A DNA stretch of 64,000 bases. It comes from Pseudodesulfovibrio sp. S3. GTDB taxonomy: Bacteria > Desulfobacterota > Desulfovibrionia > Desulfovibrionales > Desulfovibrionaceae. Positions 6,754 to 21,043 of the stretch are shown here, piece by piece. The number at the start of each line of letters is the position of its first letter. Within the stretch, counting starts at the first letter, position 1. The stretch covers positions 1-64,000 of the forward strand of contig NZ_QTZO01000010.1 of assembly GCF_004025585.1 (NCBI RefSeq). The letters run 5' to 3'. Below the pieces are notes generated by a model. The model was not told the origin of the DNA. It was given only the letters and a program-made list of their open reading frames with translations, and ran no database searches. A program made the translations under genes and the position numbers.

Positions 6754-7614
6754 ATGAGCATAGATCTGCACACCCACACCACCGCTTCCGACGGCACGCT
6801 CTCCCCCACCGAACTGGTCAAGCTGGCCAAGGAATCCGGCCTCGCCGCCGTGGCCATCACCGATCACGACACCTTTCAAGGCGTATCCGAGGCACTTGAG
6901 GCAGGGAGAAAATACGGCATCGAAGTCATCCCCGGCTCGGAACTCAGCCTGGAATCGCCCGAAGGCGCAGGCTGGATTCATGTGGTCGCCCTGTGGCTGC
7001 CCCAAGAGGCCCCGGAGCTGCAAAAGGCCTACGACTGGGTCCAGGAGGGACGCGCCAACCGCAACCATGAAATCGTGGACAAACTCCGCTCGCTGGGCGT
7101 GAACATCACGTATGAAAACGTGGCCGCCCGCGCCAAGGGAACCATCGGCCGTCCGCATTTCGCCCAGGAGATGATTGCACTGGGCGTGGTCTCCTCCATG
7201 GACGAGGCCTTCAAGGTCTGGCTCGGCGACAACGGCAGGGCCTATGTGCCCAAGCGCAAACTCACGCCCGAGCAGGCATTCCCACTCCTGAACGCCATTG
7301 GCGCAACCTCCATTCTGGCCCATCCCTTTGCCATGAACTTGAGCCATGGAGATACGGAAGAGGTCATCAAGGACCTCATGAAACTCGGTCTCGACGGCAT
7401 GGAAGTGTACTACCCCGAACACTCGGACGCTGACACCAAGGCCTATGCGGAAATGGCCGACCGGCTCGGCCTGCTCAAGAGCGGAGGCAGCGACTTCCAC
7501 GGCGCAAACAAGCCCAAGATACGCCTGGGGGTCGGCAAGGGCAGCCTGCACGTGCCCACGGAACTGCTGGATATCATGAAGAAGGACCGCCAATCCAAGG
7601 GACTGCCCGTCTAG
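6754..7614 (+). CDS. PHP-domain phosphoesterase, RNase AM/TrpH family
   Basis: 286 aa from the ATG at 6754, which begins MSIDLHTHTTASDGTLSP; the upstream in-frame extension overlaps the divergent Trm112-like gene and is not protein-like. PHP metal-binding motifs are visible: HTHTTASDG, ITDHDTF, and a C-terminal GSDFHG. Family members hydrolyse 3',5'-nucleoside bisphosphates or act as 5'-3' exoribonucleases on short RNA (RNase AM, formerly TrpH/YciV). The catalytic residues appear complete. No strong Shine-Dalgarno is seen. Exact substrate is inferred from the family. Confidence 0.85.
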   Translation: MSIDLHTHTTASDGTLSPTELVKLAKESGLAAVAITDHDTFQGVSEALEAGRKYGIEVIPGSELSLESPEGAGWIHVVALWLPQEAPELQKAYDWVQEGRANRNHEIVDKLRSLGVNITYENVAARAKGTIGRPHFAQEMIALGVVSSMDEAFKVWLGDNGRAYVPKRKLTPEQAFPLLNAIGATSILAHPFAMNLSHGDTEEVIKDLMKLGLDGMEVYYPEHSDADTKAYAEMADRLGLLKSGGSDFHGANKPKIRLGVGKGSLHVPTELLDIMKKDRQSKGLPV

Positions 7615-7649
7615 AGCATCCTTTCCTTTGAAAAAGAGGAGGTGGTCTG

Positions 7650-7694
7650 ATGTCTTTTCCCGGGATACTTGAAGAGTATGCCGGCATCGGGTGA
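7650..7694 (+). other. Orphan translation start with strong SD (short peptide or broken gene)
   Basis: GAGGAGG precedes an ATG by 7 bases and opens a 14-codon frame (MSFPGILEEYAGIG) ending in TGA at 7692. Skipping one base at the end continues as GDVAGEYVLKGFRSNRSPVP to a TAA at 7750, so this may be a small gene broken by a frameshift. I do not recognise it. Confidence 0.25.
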
Positions 7695-7748
7695 TGTTGC
7701 AGGCGAATATGTGCTCAAGGGCTTCCGTTCGAATCGATCTCCCGTTCC

Positions 7749-9143
7749 CTAATCCTCGCCGTCCATATTCCAGGGTTTCCTGATGAACATGCCGGCCTTG
7801 ATGCCCGGATAGTCGCAAATGAACACACCGCGCTGGCCGGGATGCGATACGTCCAGGCCCGTGCCGTGGTCGTTTTCCAGACCGTAATCTTCTGCGGAAA
7901 GACGGGGACGGATAAGTCCCGGGATGAGCAGTTCAACGTCATCGGATGTGGTCCAGCGGGACTTGGTCTGAACCAGCCAGCGGCCTGAAGCCAGCGGGGT
8001 GAGGATGCGGGCCAGAACCGAACGTTTTTCGCCGGGATCGGGCGGTTGGGCGATGACACCCCGGTTTGCCGGGTCAAAGAACCCGGTGGTCAAGGGCCGG
8101 GTGGCGGCATTGACCAGCTCTGAAAGGTATTTTTCAGGCTGGAACTGGCCTGCAGCGGCATCCACCAGAGCGGTCTTGTACGCGTCCACCACCTGGGCAA
8201 GATAGGCGGAACTCTTGGTCCGGCCTTCGAGTTTCACGGAGGCCACTTTCATGCGCATGAACCATTCCAGGTAATGGAGCAGGCAGAGATCCTCCGCCGC
8301 AAAAAACTTGGTCCAGGAGTCCGTGTCCAGGGCCAGGGACAAGGCCGGGTCGGCCACCGGCTCAGGCACGGGGTCTTCATCATCGAGCGGGGAAAAGGTG
8401 AAATCCTCCGGGGCGTCAAAGATGAAATCGTCCGTCTCCGAACCGTATTCGCGGATTTCCCACATCTTTTCGCCCGGTCGGGTGCGCTCCTCAAAGGTGA
8501 TGGAAGCCGGTCGATATTCGTACCGGCAGGGGTGGGAGCATTCGCCCAGATTGCCGGGTCGGTCGTTGAGCAGGGCGGACATATAGCATCGGCCGGATAT
8601 GGCCATGCACATGGAACCGTGCACAAACACCTCAAGCTCCATATTGGGCATCTGTTTGCGCACCGTATCCAGCATCTCCGACAGCTCGCCGGAGCGCAGT
8701 TCCCGGGCCACGTTGACCCGTCTGGCCCCGTTCTCCCGCCAGAACCGGACAGCTTCGGCATTGGACGTGTTGGCCTGGGTGGAGACATGCACCGGGATTT
8801 CGGGCAATTCCCGCCTGAGCATGCGGATGATGCCGGGGTCAGCGGCAATGACCGCGTCGGGCTTCAGTTCGCCCAGGGCCTCGATGTGTTCCCGGACCTG
8901 ATTCATGTGCGACTGGCGCGGGTATACGTTCAAGGTGTAGTAGACCTTGACATCCGCCTTTCTGGCCCGCTGAATGGCGATGGAAAGACTCTCCTTGTCA
9001 AACCCTCCGGCTCCGGCACGCAGATTCAGCCCCTCGCCGCCCAGATAGACAGCGTCCGCACCATACAGAATGGCGGTTTGCAACTTCTCCATGTCGCCCG
9101 CAGGGGCAAGGAGTTCCGGTCTGAAAGGACGAGCATTGGGCAT
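7749..9143 (-). CDS. Peptidase U32 family protein (TrhP/YegQ-like)
   Basis: 464 aa. The start ELLAPAGDMEKLQTAILYGA, the LGGEGLNLRAGA loop, VHGSMCMAISGRCYMS and the Cys set around LGECSHPCRYEY are signatures of the U32 collagenase-like family. Members now known include TrhP and RlhA, which hydroxylate tRNA and rRNA bases, and UbiU/UbiV, which use an Fe-S cluster for O2-independent hydroxylation; the conserved Cys here would ligate such a cluster. A Pro/Glu-rich acidic insertion (~250-275) precedes a C-terminal U32-type region. The old 'protease' label is probably wrong for this subgroup. Transcribed alone. Confidence 0.85.
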   Translation of the reverse strand: MPNARPFRPELLAPAGDMEKLQTAILYGADAVYLGGEGLNLRAGAGGFDKESLSIAIQRARKADVKVYYTLNVYPRQSHMNQVREHIEALGELKPDAVIAADPGIIRMLRRELPEIPVHVSTQANTSNAEAVRFWRENGARRVNVARELRSGELSEMLDTVRKQMPNMELEVFVHGSMCMAISGRCYMSALLNDRPGNLGECSHPCRYEYRPASITFEERTRPGEKMWEIREYGSETDDFIFDAPEDFTFSPLDDEDPVPEPVADPALSLALDTDSWTKFFAAEDLCLLHYLEWFMRMKVASVKLEGRTKSSAYLAQVVDAYKTALVDAAAGQFQPEKYLSELVNAATRPLTTGFFDPANRGVIAQPPDPGEKRSVLARILTPLASGRWLVQTKSRWTTSDDVELLIPGLIRPRLSAEDYGLENDHGTGLDVSHPGQRGVFICDYPGIKAGMFIRKPWNMDGED

Positions 9144-16846: not shown

Positions 16847-17512
16847 TTATTTGACCCGTTTGATGACGGCCCCGGCCTCTCTGTCGGGCACCAGTTCGAA
16901 GATACGGTCTGCTGACCCGGCGAACAGGTCCAGGGGGTGGTGGCTGATGATCAGGAGCTGCAAGTTCAGCCGCACGGCGATTTCCTGAATCAGCTTCATG
17001 AATTTGGGGATCAGTCCGGGCTTGAGCCAGCAGTCCTGCTCGTCCAGGACCAGGAAGGGGCGGTGATTCGCTTCCGGCAGCTGGGACAGGGCAATGAGCC
17101 GCAACCCCACGGACAAGATGTTGCAGACAGAACCGCCCTGGCCGGTCATGATGTCCTCTATCTCATCCTCGCGGCCCTGGTTGCGGATCAGGAAATGGAT
17201 GTGCAGCCGATTGGACTTGACCTCGCGCTCGGACACGACCACCCGGTCCTGACCGAGGATTTCTCGGATGGCGTGGGTTAGGTTGGCCTCCACCTCGTCC
17301 AGGATCTTGCCGAACAGGGCCGTGGACAACTCTTCCAGGGTATCCCGCGCCTTGGGAGCAAGGACCAGAAAGTCCCGTACTGAGGCAAGGGACCGGCGCA
17401 CCCGCCCGTGTTCGGAGTGCAGCCGTTCTGCCAGGGCGGACAGGCGGTGTATGCGGCCCTGGGCCTGCCTGCGCGCCTCGCGAAGGTCAATCAACTCCTG
17501 ACGCAGGGGCAC
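16847..17512 (-). CDS. Split Rad50/SbcC-like ATPase, C-terminal half (signature, Walker B, H-loop)
   Basis: 221 aa from a GTG one base after the stop of the preceding gene. The longer reading would lie inside that gene. Residues 5-60 form a coiled coil. Then come an ABC/SMC signature-like TGQGGSV (123-129), the Walker B strand FLVLDEQD (153-160, Asp157, Glu158) and an H-loop IISHHP (His191). There is no Walker A. These are the motifs of the C-terminal lobe of Rad50/SbcC/SMC proteins. The missing Walker A lobe and hook are encoded by the gene at 18776-20134 in the same operon, so the two chains probably assemble into one nucleotide-binding domain. Role in DNA end processing is inference. Confidence 0.75.
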   Translation of the reverse strand: MPLRQELIDLREARRQAQGRIHRLSALAERLHSEHGRVRRSLASVRDFLVLAPKARDTLEELSTALFGKILDEVEANLTHAIREILGQDRVVVSEREVKSNRLHIHFLIRNQGREDEIEDIMTGQGGSVCNILSVGLRLIALSQLPEANHRPFLVLDEQDCWLKPGLIPKFMKLIQEIAVRLNLQLLIISHHPLDLFAGSADRIFELVPDREAGAVIKRVK

Positions 17513-17513
17513 G

Positions 17514-17837
17514 CTAGTCTCCCTCCACCGCGTTCTCAACCTCGGCGAGATCGGTTTGAATCTGTTGGATATGCTTGCGGTACTTGGCAACAACCTCTTC
17601 ATTTTGTTGCCTCTTATCCTCCAACAACTGTTGCAGAGCCTTGATATCGCTGGTCCCGTACTCGGCCTCGGCCTGGGTTTTCAAGGCCTGCAACTGGTGG
17701 GAGAGCTGGGCCACGGCCTCCTCGGTGCGGACCTTGCGGTCACGCAGTCGCTCATACTGCTCCCGCAGCTCATTAAGCTCCCGTTCCACCTGGGAATCCC
17801 TGTTTGTCCCTGTTTGGTTGGGGTTGTTATTCACCAT
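17514..17837 (-). CDS. Small coiled-coil protein of the split Rad50-like operon
   Basis: 107 aa from the ATG at 17837, 6 bases after a strong GAGGAGG; it overlaps the end of the nuclease gene by 11 bases. Apart from a short polar N-terminus (VNNNPNQTGTNRD), residues ~20-105 are one long charged heptad-like helix (ELNELREQYERLRDRKV, LEDKRQQNEEVVAKY). No catalytic motif. Lying between the nuclease and the Walker B half, it may supply a coiled-coil segment or a bridging subunit for the complex. I do not recognise a named family. Confidence 0.75.
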   Translation of the reverse strand: MVNNNPNQTGTNRDSQVERELNELREQYERLRDRKVRTEEAVAQLSHQLQALKTQAEAEYGTSDIKALQQLLEDKRQQNEEVVAKYRKHIQQIQTDLAEVENAVEGD

Positions 17838-18786
17838 GTATGACCTCCTCATAGAGTTCCCAGATGAGTTTGCCTTCCGGGGTCTTGTTGCTCAAATTTT
17901 CTTCCAGAAATTGCTTCAGGCCGGTCCCCTCATGGGTCCGCTGCCACGCAAGCCGCTCCAACCCCTTGATGAAATTGGATTCTCCTTCGATCTCCTGCTC
18001 CTCCGGCGGCAGCTCCTGATCCGGGAAGACCTGATCAAAGGGGAGAAAGGGCACGACCCACCGCTCCAGCTCGGAGCATCCGGGCGTCCAGATGGCGGCG
18101 GCTGGCTCGCGCTCCATGGACCGCCGGGAAAAGGTCAGCCGGGTGATGTTGCCGGGGTTGGCCCAGACGGTCTGTCCCTTGACCACGGTCGGCTGGGGGC
18201 GGTGGATATGCCCGTTCACCAGCCAGTCGATGCCGGGCAGTTCCTTGATGGAATAGGCCCGCTCGATGAACTCGGGAAACTGGATATTATGATGGGTGAG
18301 CCAGATGACCGTTTCCGGATCACCCTCCTCGCGGTCATACCCCTTGGGCAAAGGGGTGCCGTCCGGGCTGGCGCAGACCATGACCGGTCCTTGCCCGGTC
18401 TCAAGCACGAACTGAGGGCCGCCTTCCTTCATGAGCCGGACCACGCCCGCCGTCTCCAAGACCGCAAGGGACACGTCATCGGTAAACCGGGACTGGTACT
18501 TGTCATGGTTGCCGACCAGTATCCAGACCGCCCCATCGCCGGTGCGCGCAGCGAAAAGCCGGATCAAATCCACAAGCATCTTGTTGGAGTTGTCGCGGGG
18601 CCAGTGAAAGAGGTCCCCCAGGATGACCGGAACCATGCCGAGCGCCTCTGCACGGTCCAGGCAGGCCGCAAGCTTGCTCATGATCTGCTCGAGATAACCA
18701 ACAAGGCGCTGGCCCGGCGGATGGTCCGCCAGATGCGGGTCCGCGACCATGAACAGTCCTTTGCCCCGTATCCTGTCAAGCATCAT
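17827..18786 (-). CDS. SbcD/Mre11-like calcineurin-type phosphoesterase (predicted nuclease)
   Basis: About 319 aa from ATG 18786; a TTG six codons upstream is also in frame. Metallophosphatase motifs appear in order: VADPHL (Asp16, His18), VILGDLFHW, VGNHDKY, a His pair in WLTHHN, and NGHIHRP. The second motif has His where many SbcD proteins have a second Asp. The family binds two Mn ions and cuts DNA ends or hairpins with a Rad50-type ATPase. The gene starts inside the 3' end of the Walker A half gene and overlaps the coiled-coil gene, which supports a complex. It is somewhat shorter than E. coli SbcD; the capping domain was not identified. Confidence 0.82.
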   Translation of the reverse strand: MMLDRIRGKGLFMVADPHLADHPPGQRLVGYLEQIMSKLAACLDRAEALGMVPVILGDLFHWPRDNSNKMLVDLIRLFAARTGDGAVWILVGNHDKYQSRFTDDVSLAVLETAGVVRLMKEGGPQFVLETGQGPVMVCASPDGTPLPKGYDREEGDPETVIWLTHHNIQFPEFIERAYSIKELPGIDWLVNGHIHRPQPTVVKGQTVWANPGNITRLTFSRRSMEREPAAAIWTPGCSELERWVVPFLPFDQVFPDQELPPEEQEIEGESNFIKGLERLAWQRTHEGTGLKQFLEENLSNKTPEGKLIWELYEEVIHGE

Positions 18787-20134
18787 GTCGGCACCCGTGA
18801 TCAAGGAAGGTTGCGGTTGTCAGATCGCCGCCGCAGGTGGGGCAGCAGCCGAACTCCTTGATGCGCCTATCCATGGCATCCACAATTTCCCGCAAGTCTT
18901 TCTCCAATCCATCCAGCATCTGCTGTCGCTCACCCAACCCGGCTTCGAGAGCAGCCAGTTCGGCAACGGTTGCGCCCAATGCGCCGACCGGTTCCGGCAA
19001 CGGTGGTTCCGCAACATTCCGCAAAAGCTCGTCCCATCGGGCCAGACGGGTGTGGCGGTAGTACATGGCTATGAATTCATCCAAAAAATCAGCGAGTTCC
19101 TTTGATTCTTCCCTGGCGGGAACATCAACCAGACCATCCAGGACGGTCTTCTGATCCGCAGCCTTCCGCAAAACCCGTCCCTTGGCAGAGACGGATTCAA
19201 CAAGCCGGAGCAGGGAACCGGTGTCCTCGGTCTCGGGCAGACCTGCCAGGGGAGCCAGAACGGCCCTGGTTTTCCGGGCCGCTGCAAGCTGCCGTTCCGC
19301 AAAGGACATGGAGTGAATTGCACCATTCAACGAACTGACTTGATTGAGTTTCGGCGGCGCGCCGGTCTTTGCAAGAACCCTTGCGGCAGCCGAAGCTCTC
19401 TGCACGCTTACGGTCAAATTTCCACGCTCGGCCAATACTGATTCAAGAGCCGGAACCGCACTTTCAAGGGTGATGGCCGCCTGTTCCAGCTCCTGGACCG
19501 TTTCCATCTGCAACTCGATGTCCGGCAGGGGCGAGAGTTCGTCGACTTCAGCGAAAATCCGCTGAACCCGAATCTCCAGATCGCGCTCCTCCCGCTTGGC
19601 GTCCTGGGTCCGGCGCTTGAGCAGGTTCTGCATGGCCAGCAGATGGGCGCTTTCCGTGGACGCAGCGAAAAAGGCGGCCATGGCCGAATCGGACTTGTTG
19701 AGCAAAAAAATAGGTTCACGCTGATTGCCGATATGGATGTCCACGGGATCCTTGCCGTTCTCCAGTTCCACCAGATCGAGCCTGAGGGCCTTGGATATAT
19801 CTTCGGGCACCCTGCCCTGGAGCTTGTGGTACTCCTCCGGTTCCTCGGCACCCGGCGTCCACAGCTCATACATGGCCCACCGCTTGGTACGGACCCAGGC
19901 CACTCTGGTGCCGTCGTCCAGCACGACCTCCACCCGCGCCTCCTTGGCACCGTGACGGATGTACAAGGCGGGGTTGGGATTGCGGGCAGGGTTGGTGGCC
20001 ACGCAGCGCAACGCCTCCACCACAGCGGATTTCCCGGTGTTGTTGCTGCCTGTCAGGATGGTCACGCCCGGCCCGAGTTCCATCTCGGTGTGTTCGTGAG
20101 CCATAAAATTATCGATTATGATTTTTTCAATCAT
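18776..20134 (-). CDS. Split Rad50/SbcC-like ATPase, N-terminal half (Walker A plus zinc-hook CxxC)
   Basis: 452 aa. The N-terminus IIIDNFMAHEHTEMEL and the P-loop TGSNNTGKSAVVEALR (Lys35, Ser36) are those of RecF/Rad50/SMC ATPases. A long, partly coiled-coil region follows (~160-420), and the chain stops shortly after a Rad50-type hook motif, C431-P-T-C434-GG. The polypeptide therefore holds the Walker A lobe and one coil arm up to the hook, but no signature or Walker B. Those are in the gene at 16847-17512. It starts 3 bases after the Cys-rich gene and overlaps the nuclease gene. A frameshifted full-length SbcC is unlikely because two intact genes separate the halves. Confidence 0.8.
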   Translation of the reverse strand: MIEKIIIDNFMAHEHTEMELGPGVTILTGSNNTGKSAVVEALRCVATNPARNPNPALYIRHGAKEARVEVVLDDGTRVAWVRTKRWAMYELWTPGAEEPEEYHKLQGRVPEDISKALRLDLVELENGKDPVDIHIGNQREPIFLLNKSDSAMAAFFAASTESAHLLAMQNLLKRRTQDAKREERDLEIRVQRIFAEVDELSPLPDIELQMETVQELEQAAITLESAVPALESVLAERGNLTVSVQRASAAARVLAKTGAPPKLNQVSSLNGAIHSMSFAERQLAAARKTRAVLAPLAGLPETEDTGSLLRLVESVSAKGRVLRKAADQKTVLDGLVDVPAREESKELADFLDEFIAMYYRHTRLARWDELLRNVAEPPLPEPVGALGATVAELAALEAGLGERQQMLDGLEKDLREIVDAMDRRIKEFGCCPTCGGDLTTATFLDHGCRHDA

Positions 20135-20137
20135 TAT

Positions 20138-21043
20138 TTATGGATATCTTGGCTTATCTTTGAGTTTCCGAAACCATTCGTCCACGCCGGACGTTTGCAT
20201 TTTCTCGTTGTTCCCACGCCAGATTCCGGCCAGCCTCTCCGGCATGCCATGCTGGTCGCAGGGGAACTCCTGGCACTGAAAGCAATACGTCACCCCGTGC
20301 TCTTTGACGCAAGGGGCGACCTTGCAGGCCTGGAACAGACATCCCTGCTCCCGACATCCGGCGCACGACCCCGAGGCCAAAAAGTCGAGCAGTTCGGCAA
20401 AGACGGGATACTTCTTGAAAACCGGGTTCATCCCCTCGAATCGCCGGGCGTACCCGCTGAAGTTCGGTCCCAGTTCACGCCGCAATTCCGAACCCAAGTG
20501 CCGGACCGGACCGTCCGAAAAGGCGACACATTTGCCGCACATGAGCCCACATGGCGCCAGCCGTGACCGGATGAAAGCATCCTCTGCAGGAAGGTAGCCG
20601 TGTTCCCGGAGAATGGAAAGGGCGGATTCAGCGGCGTGAACGGCCATGCTGCGACATTCCCGCTTGAGATCATTGGCTTTATAGCGCTCCTTGCCCTCCA
20701 CCGTGGTGAAGTCGCATCCGATCAGCTCAAAACAGTTGCTGGAACCGTATTGCTCGCTGAACCGCGCCAGGAATTCCTGGACCATGGCATAGCAGGATTC
20801 GTGATCCCCGCCCGGTTCGGCCCGGCCCGCATACAACCCGATGCCCATGACGGCACCACTTACCACGCCGCACTGGCCGCAGGTACGCGAGACACCGCTG
20901 CAAAATCCGGTGGCCGCACGAGTAAGGTCGTCCGACTCCCTGCCTCCTGCTTCGGCGATCACCTTGACCACGGATTCTGCGCACAGCAACCCGCCATCGC
21001 CAAACAACTCGTGTATCCTGTTGTTCACATACTCGCTCGCCAT
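20138..21043 (-). CDS. C_GCAxxG_C_C family redox protein fused to a DUF3795-like Cys-rich domain
   Basis: 301 aa. The first ~150 residues show the C_GCAxxG_C_C pattern (SRTCGQCGVVSGAVMGIGLYAG, then paired Cys further on). The second half carries LAPCGLMCGKCVAF followed by a Cys-dense block (CAGCREQGCLFQACKV, YCFQCQEFPCD), as in DUF3795. Both families are common in anaerobes and are thought to bind metals or do redox chemistry, without a firm function. It has no signal peptide. It sits in a leftward operon between the trmN6-like gene (19 bases) and the Walker A half of the split ATPase (3 bases). Confidence 0.75.
   Translation of the reverse strand: MASEYVNNRIHELFGDGGLLCAESVVKVIAEAGGRESDDLTRAATGFCSGVSRTCGQCGVVSGAVMGIGLYAGRAEPGGDHESCYAMVQEFLARFSEQYGSSNCFELIGCDFTTVEGKERYKANDLKRECRSMAVHAAESALSILREHGYLPAEDAFIRSRLAPCGLMCGKCVAFSDGPVRHLGSELRRELGPNFSGYARRFEGMNPVFKKYPVFAELLDFLASGSCAGCREQGCLFQACKVAPCVKEHGVTYCFQCQEFPCDQHGMPERLAGIWRGNNEKMQTSGVDEWFRKLKDKPRYP

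Follow-up and report, generated by a model that had tools for sequence, protein, structure and literature searches.

A four-gene operon of Pseudodesulfovibrio encodes a putative split Mre11–Rad50 complex whose design appears to recur in phages and distantly related bacteria, for the most part in the absence of detected SbcCD

In the known Rad50 and SMC proteins, both ATPase lobes lie in one chain that folds back on itself at an apex. We analysed a 64,000-nucleotide (nt) stretch of Pseudodesulfovibrio sp. S3 (contig NZ_QTZO01000010.1, positions 1–64,000, hereafter the window; the host genome assembly, GCF_004025585.1, has 3.68 Mb in 43 contigs), in which four open reading frames (ORFs) form one minus-strand operon at 16847–20134, in the order N-lobe ATPase half, nuclease, coil protein and C-lobe ATPase half. 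With a probability of about 0.8, this operon encodes a split Mre11–Rad50 (SbcCD-like) complex, the assembly and activity of which we infer from its parts. The four-part design appears to recur in distant bacteria and in phages, mostly where SbcCD was not detected.

Gene 1 (18776–20134; this and all features below are on the minus strand; 452 amino acids, aa) is the N-lobe half with an arm and a hook at its end. It carries the Walker A motif GSNNTGKS (residues 29–36; 20027–20050), Gln138 (19721–19723), which we take to be the Q-loop, a modular arm (residues 160–428; 18851–19657) with six helices and Pro-rich breaks in the AlphaFold2 model, and the terminal hook CPTC (residues 431–434, within CPTCGG at 431–436; 18833–18844), 18 residues past which the chain ends. 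Gene 2 (17827–18786; 319 aa) is a calcineurin-type (Mre11/SbcD-like) phosphoesterase, and gene 3 (17514–17837; 107 aa) a coil protein present in all 34 loci fetched from the genus. Gene 4 (16847–17512; 221 aa, GTG start) is the C-lobe half according to AlphaFold2 and the fold search, with the signature GQGGS (residues 124–128; 17129–17143), Walker B FLVLDE (within FLVLDEQD, residues 153–158; 17039–17056) with an intact catalytic Glu, and the H-loop SHH (within ISHH, residues 190–192; 16937–16945); the Walker A pattern was not found in it. Genes 1 and 2 overlap by 11 nt, as do genes 2 and 3, and 1 nt separates genes 3 and 4. These ORFs, coordinates and junctions are as claimed in the original prediction, which had been made from the sequence alone, and the gene order was kept in 34/34 genus loci. 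Over the Pfam cut-offs, gene 1 matched AAA_23 (E 2.5e-10) and AAA_15 and gene 2 matched Metallophos (E 1.4e-6), genes 3 and 4 exceeded no Pfam cut-off, and none of the four matched NCBIfam over cut-off.

All invariance counts for genes 1, 2 and 4 refer to alignments of 32 chosen rows from multiple phyla; the gene 1 rows left out locus L212, the sole known N-half without the CxxC. Invariant were G29, N31, N32, G34, K35 and S36 (Walker A), Q138 and both hook cysteines in gene 1, and G124, G126, G127, S128, D157, E158, S190, H191 and H192 in gene 4, which bears out the motifs first read in the two chains. The complete set of Rad50/SbcC head motifs (Walker A, Q-loop, signature, Walker B, H-loop) is conserved, divided between two chains. 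Gene 2 had been read as a calcineurin-type phosphoesterase; the Metallophos match agrees with this, as do its invariant residues D16, H18, D58, N93, H94, D95, H165, H193 and H195, the metal ligands of the family.

The proposal that the two chains are the two lobes of a Rad50/SMC head was upheld by the fold search. The AlphaFold2 model of gene 1 (predicted local distance difference test, pLDDT, 71) places six helices, with breaks near residues 200, 260, 300, 340 and 380, between an N-lobe and the hook, and its best Foldseek matches in the PDB were Rad50 N-lobes (3av0_B, E 3.7e-6; 1f2u_C, E 4e-6). The gene 4 model (pLDDT 80, predicted template modelling score, pTM, 0.54) starts with an 84-residue helix (residues 3–86) that leads into a C-lobe and best matched SMC/Rad50 C-lobes (5h66_B, E 3.6e-7; 9a9j_B, E 2.1e-6; 1f2u_B, E 1.1e-5). 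Some of the matched PDB heads consist of N- and C-lobe fragments as separate chains, 1f2u_A and C resembling gene 1 and 1f2u_B and D resembling gene 4; these fragments were reportedly co-expressed. In profile comparisons, gene 1 matched SMC and Rad50 heads as well as SbcC-type N-lobes from four loci (probability 95.7, E 1e-8), and gene 4 matched SMC and ABC-transporter C-lobes among the PDB sequences (best E 9e-5). The gene 1 profile also matched the Rad50 zinc-hook chains 6zff_A and 1l8d_A, in both cases ending at the hook; in 1l8d_A the match spans residues 5–60 of 112, i.e., approximately to the middle of the chain and none beyond.

Gene 1 was present in 34/35 relatives of the genus (the exception being an 82% complete genome), and in each of the 34 fetched loci the cassette consisted of four distinct ORFs arranged identically, whose junctions varied by no more than a few codons (overlaps of 8–11 nt between genes 1 and 2 and of 8–17 nt between genes 2 and 3; genes 3 and 4 from 4 nt overlapping to 14 nt apart). 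Across the order, where gene 4 served as the survey marker and genes 1–3 were looked for in fetched loci alone, the gene 4 profile found relatives in 88/297 genomes, all of one family; one further genome (G268, E 3e-5) was dropped from an initial 89 because its match was partial and lacked both the signature and Walker B. The cassette was complete and in order in 27/32 further loci of the family, and in a collection of genome contigs (genome_contigs) all four genes were in order in 69 of the best 80 of 124 relatives; these two sets share genomes, and their incomplete loci are contig-end cuts, unlinked genes and one false match. Carriers included Desulfovibrionaceae, Syntrophobacteraceae, Desulfobacca, Desulfobacterales, many Planctomycetota, one Sumerlaeia and one Parachlamydiaceae bin (bins may be contaminated), and a Clostridiales bin had genes 2–4 at a contig start. 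The same four-gene order therefore recurs widely, in several phyla, and is not the local arrangement that a single operon might have been. In Planctomycetota (the phylum of Rhodopirellula rubra) the cassette was patchy, being found in 10/196 sampled genomes including the centre genome. The 146 pooled loci comprised 122 unique by gene 4, of which 100 had all four genes complete and the other 22 were contig-end cuts, unlinked or start-filter failures. In a quick tree of genes 2 and 4 from the 100 loci (Shimodaira–Hasegawa-like approximate likelihood ratio support only), four Desulfobacteria rows stood among Planctomycetota, which suggests possible horizontal transfer, and the distances of genes 1, 2 and 4 correlated with each other (r 0.91–0.95, with no control gene for comparison). 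In two loci, L124 (genome G227) and L181, cassette genes were matched in two frames as apparent frameshifts in single assemblies, where sequencing error is possible.

The split itself is conserved across these phyla and in phages: wherever a locus contained both lobes, each had a gene of its own, in place of the single polypeptide that characterizes Rad50/SbcC. A gene 4 homologue with a Walker A of its own, which the original prediction had named as evidence against it, was found in none of 112 bacterial loci (scanned from the profile start; the set includes one false match, L127, and several genomes twice) and in none of the 28 viral loci described below. Four genomes (G144, G238, G319 and G323) had genes 1–3 together and gene 4 apart from them. 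In G144, a single-contig genome, gene 4 was on the other strand approximately 5.5 kb from genes 1–3, and in the other three it was on a different contig, with at least 3.3 kb before it free of the trio. In G150, the 6 kb upstream of gene 4 were free, and all that was present of gene 1 was a fragment at a contig end. G071 was left out of this count: contig ends no more than about 130 bases from genes 3 and 4 point to an assembly break. In two further loci another gene stood between genes 3 and 4, coding for an RNB-domain protein in L126 and a CAAX-protease-like protein in L110.

The arm differs from a plain coil. In 99 of the 100 unique complete loci, 14–42 residues followed the CxxC, and in these 99 loci the hook stood at about residue 345, or at 378–393, 417–431, 458–469, 495–508 or 535–547, and never between these clusters. 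Among 39 representatives (gene 4 identity ≤ 70%), the best period of the hook position was 39.5 residues, a regularity reached by 0/5000 uniform draws, and in the 32-row alignment the arm modules were separated by Pro-containing turns. Gene 3, in contrast, measured 97–124 aa across the 100 complete unique loci and hardly followed the arm (slope 0.02 aa per arm residue; Spearman 0.26). As gene 3 keeps its length while the arm grows in steps of approximately 39.5 residues, the arm is not a plain Rad50 coil, and, unlike in Rad50, full-length pairing with a second strand is impossible. The earlier idea that the hook ends the first chain was confirmed, whereas a return arm made of gene 3 alone was not, because gene 4 contributes its own predicted helix; and what had been taken for a plain short coil became an arm of Pro-bounded helical modules, in a family found in many bacteria and phages. 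We infer that the arm modules pack on themselves or stack, and that genes 3 and 4 would form only the head-proximal part.

The near-constant length of gene 3 would fit a head-bound regulator or loader outside the arm, a role that we consider a real, if tentative, possibility; its coil composition and its constant company with genes 1 and 2 speak for a place in the arm, without being decisive. A different role is conceivable for the hook, since the tail after the CxxC (18776–18832 in the window) is enriched in His (8.5% vs. 2.3% before the CxxC in the 99 unique N-halves), with an HxH in 36/99 (at offset 13 in 21 of these 36) and some His in 87/99. The CxxC could then be one half of an intramolecular zinc finger completed by the tail, so that the arm would end in a cap and complexes would not meet there. 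We regard this as unlikely, given that 12/99 tails have no His, that the second motif residue is Pro in 92/99 and the following residue Gly in 94/99, as in Rad50 hooks, and that the profile matches Rad50 hook chains.

Divergent versions of the cassette were found in phages. Microcystis phage Mvi-JY20 has the bacterial order, with an N-half of 332 aa (14 residues after CSQC), a phosphoesterase of 319 aa, a coil protein of 94 aa and a C-lobe of 205 aa. In Bacillus phage vB_BboS-125, the N-half (9 residues after CPLC) is followed by an AP2 gene, a coil protein of 78 aa, a C-lobe and finally a phosphoesterase ORF. This ORF lies at about 7109–8224 of the locus (L308), a stretch whose sole annotated gene encodes 118 aa and overlaps the ORF start. 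A search of viral contigs with profile A4 found no relative, and the phage versions were reached by tblastn and a phage C-lobe query. The viral set comprised 28 loci (L312–L339), 27 found by that query (vB_BboS-125 included) plus one from a jumbo phage (L339), many of the 28 being near-copies. All 28 had an N-half with 5–16 residues after the CPxC, a separate C-lobe and a phosphoesterase, and 27/28 had the coil protein; the phosphoesterase stood 3' of the C-lobe in 27/28, and the jumbo phage carries it between N-half and C-lobe. The bacterial gene 1 profile matched the Bacillus phage N-half over positions 2–428 of 444 (124 bits) and the gene 4 profile matched three phage C-lobes (32–63 bits), so the phage versions are divergent homologues with the same split. 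Phage versions of three of the parts belong to PHROG families, phrog_16465 (N-half), phrog_18563 (coil) and phrog_15167 (C-lobe), which carry the unconnected labels exonuclease, unknown and ATPase; in these phages the nuclease usually follows the C-lobe, whereas it is the second gene in bacteria. A Tenacibaculum phage match (H7) was rejected as a split system because its ATPase and the next gene lacked the other parts by eye, and the gene before a Microbacterium phage C-lobe was rejected as a coil because its appearance was not coil-like.

The cassette rarely shares a genome with a clearly recognizable SbcD. The SbcC model TIGR00618 had no match in the own genome, but exceeded its cut-off in none of the 297 order genomes and in only 1/14 controls. 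The SbcD model TIGR00619 had no match at E ≤ 1e-3 in the own genome, and since only 8/14 controls passed its cut-off, the lack of a match over cut-off does not equal the lack of SbcD. Within the order, SbcD was over cut-off in 61 genomes and matched at E ≤ 1e-3 in 195. It was over cut-off in 1/88 genomes with gene 4 vs. 60/209 others (Fisher p 1e-9), matched at E ≤ 1e-7 in 2/88 vs. 177/209 (p 1e-44) and at E ≤ 1e-3 in 10/88 vs. 185/209 (p 2e-38), in tests that count related genomes as independent. Weak SbcD matches of YhaO-like size were frequent in genomes without gene 4. The sole order genome with both gene 4 and SbcD over cut-off, G012, has its SbcC interrupted by a transposase-like ORF (named by eye; L247, 2316–8159), and what was seen in G151 was no more than an SbcCD remnant containing a stop. 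Outside the family, where 43 genomes (43 of the 51 loci L169–L219) were considered, SbcD exceeded the cut-off in 1/43 cassette genomes, namely the L212 genome (G336). Mapped on an rpoB tree of 60 selected genomes, the cassette requires 4 changes, and three independent contrasts are supported; the cassette and the SbcD/YhaO-like weak match never changed in the same direction over random pairings, and in opposite directions in 2.2–2.5 of 3. Two genomes of one genus (G060 and G118, genus g14), inside the cassette clade, had neither the cassette nor any SbcD match, and their sisters had canonical SbcD.

Several observations weigh against this being a split Mre11–Rad50 complex, or one that stands in for SbcCD. 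The gene 1 model has a pTM of 0.33 and pLDDT < 50 at residues 121–162, its fold-search TM-scores were modest (approximately 0.2–0.26 by query length), and those of gene 4 were about 0.4 with root mean square deviations of 6–10. Gene 4 had no significant profile match to canonical SbcC C-lobes (E 0.24, effective number of sequences, Neff, of the template 1.4), and the match of gene 2 to SbcD was weak (E 0.002, probability 13; E 0.009 in the PDB). The gene 1 homologue of L212 (754 aa) no longer has a CxxC and terminates with a hydrophobic segment plus a long tail, and in genomes G318 and G331 gene 4 was present and no gene 1 was found. The 10 gene 4 genomes with some TIGR00619 match at E ≤ 1e-3 also count here, even if some of these matches may be gene 2 itself, as do the 20/43 cassette genomes outside the family with an SbcD match at that threshold, mostly weak, and the 3/60 tree genomes with neither cassette nor SbcD at this sensitivity. 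With few independent events, the sign test was not significant, the median p being 0.25 under a first coding, which scored weak SbcD matches as present only in cassette-free genomes, and 0.5 under two uniform codings. Because of genome kinship and the small number of independent events, replacement of SbcCD by the split complex, as suggested by the gene distributions, is consistent with the data and supported but statistically unproven.

Compared with SbcCD/Mre11–Rad50, the system shares the SMC-type head lobes, the CPxCG hook and a calcineurin-type nuclease partner in the same operon. It differs in that the lobes are in two chains, the hook is at a chain end instead of a mid-chain apex, a coil subunit is added, the arm is built of repeated Pro-bounded modules, the nuclease has only 319 aa, and the C-lobe and nuclease sequences are far from canonical SbcC and SbcD. 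A phosphoesterase adjoining a large SMC-like ATPase is also found in the YhaO/YhaN-like pair; there the ATPase is one frame of 1176–1216 aa in the three cases seen (G037, G044 and G052). In the nearest published case, that of PMC3175470, Mre11/Rad50 fusion proteins of Mimivirus and others are an unusual arrangement of the same two activities, and in two such fusions, one of them in a Bacillus phage, one SbcC NTPase segment was not observed. Mimivirus-type fusions join nuclease and ATPase, whereas here the opposite applies, the ATPase being divided and the four parts separate. No natural split Rad50/SbcC was reported among the papers listed in searches of open-access literature (most subscription papers fall outside this scope), including the 15 listed of 234 in one of them, nor in passages of PMC1193525, PMC10586767, PMC8093625, PMC12474458, PMC12153180, PMC7824862, PMC5468394 and PMC3175470.

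The system also resembles Lamassu (LmuABC), which according to PMC10586767 has a Rad50-like ATPase, in many cases with a CPxCG hook, and a small subunit. LmuB is a single chain, generally with the Walker B Glu changed to Gln, and is accompanied by a variable effector, whereas the present system has two chains, an invariant E158 and a phosphoesterase with gene 1 in every complete locus. The operon could accordingly serve anti-phage or anti-plasmid defence as a Lamassu-, Gabija- or ABC-three-component-like ATPase–nuclease, instead of housekeeping repair. The 93 PADLOC models that match gene 1 at E ≤ 0.1 would fit this, with AriA, GajA and LmuB among the best 25, most of them over the first 40–75 residues and one LmuB model over residues 2–439, as would the patchiness in Planctomycetota and the phage versions. 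We nevertheless find a defence role quite improbable, considering that the cassette is core in the genus (with murJ in the fetched region of 32/34 loci and a methyltransferase gene in 33/34), that in contrast to LmuB its Walker B Glu is intact, and that it and SbcCD nearly exclude each other. That the lobes are joined by frameshifting or were split only recently, leaving an SbcC ordinary in function, hardly deserves consideration: in most of the genus set of 34 loci, genes 3 and 4 do abut or share 1 or 4 bases, but the nuclease stands between the lobes in the gene order so that no simple frameshift can unite them, other genes intervene in L126 and L110, the unlinked gene 4 excludes a fusion in four genomes, and the split is common to several phyla and phages.

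Directly upstream of the cassette, at 20138–21043 of the window, lies a gene for a protein with C_GCAxxG_C_C and DUF3795, which was in the region of 29/34 genus loci.

Taken as a split Mre11–Rad50 complex, the operon would most probably work as an ATP-gated nuclease acting on DNA ends, as SbcCD does. Gene 1 would provide ATPase lobe I with the Walker A and Q-loop, the modular helical arm and the zinc hook at its very end, and gene 4 lobe II, with the signature, Walker B and H-loop, and the base of the second arm, while gene 3 would contribute part of the returning coil and gene 2 would be the nuclease. Lobes I and II would assemble in trans to a single SMC-type head, a pair of these heads would clamp ATP and DNA, and two gene 1 chains would meet at the hook; a nuclease dimer below the heads would cut DNA ends, hairpins and protein-blocked ends upon ATP hydrolysis. 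SbcCD cleaves DNA ends, hairpins and blocked ends (PMC6265447), and the Rad50 hook is described as a stable dimerisation interface that can be exchanged for an SMC hinge (PMC6969161). The conserved C-terminus of gene 2 (residues 270–315) could be the counterpart of the Mre11/SbcD helix-loop-helix that binds the Rad50 coil. Zinc binding and the placement of gene 3 are likewise putative. Of the heteromeric complex of new architecture first proposed, the split architecture holds family-wide, and processing of DNA ends is what the family motifs and the near mutual exclusion with SbcCD suggest.

Rather doubtful, but more far-reaching, is the possibility of a large unrecognised superfamily of four-subunit split Rad50–Mre11 machines exchanged between phages and bacteria, with the head always assembled in trans and the arm evolving by gain or loss of helical modules of approximately 39.5 residues. 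If this were true, the trans-assembled head would be a third gate, which canonical SMC rings lack, and DNA could be loaded or released by exchange of the C-lobe/coil subunit with the hook staying closed.

From a conserved natural split it would follow that such machines can do without a covalent return arm. Separately tunable halves would be available for single-molecule work on ring opening, and the stepwise arm lengths would offer a means to test the role of arm length in DNA tethering. The family models searched give the split system no name, and its recognition would fill an apparent gap, as many sulfate reducers without detected SbcCD carry the split cassette.

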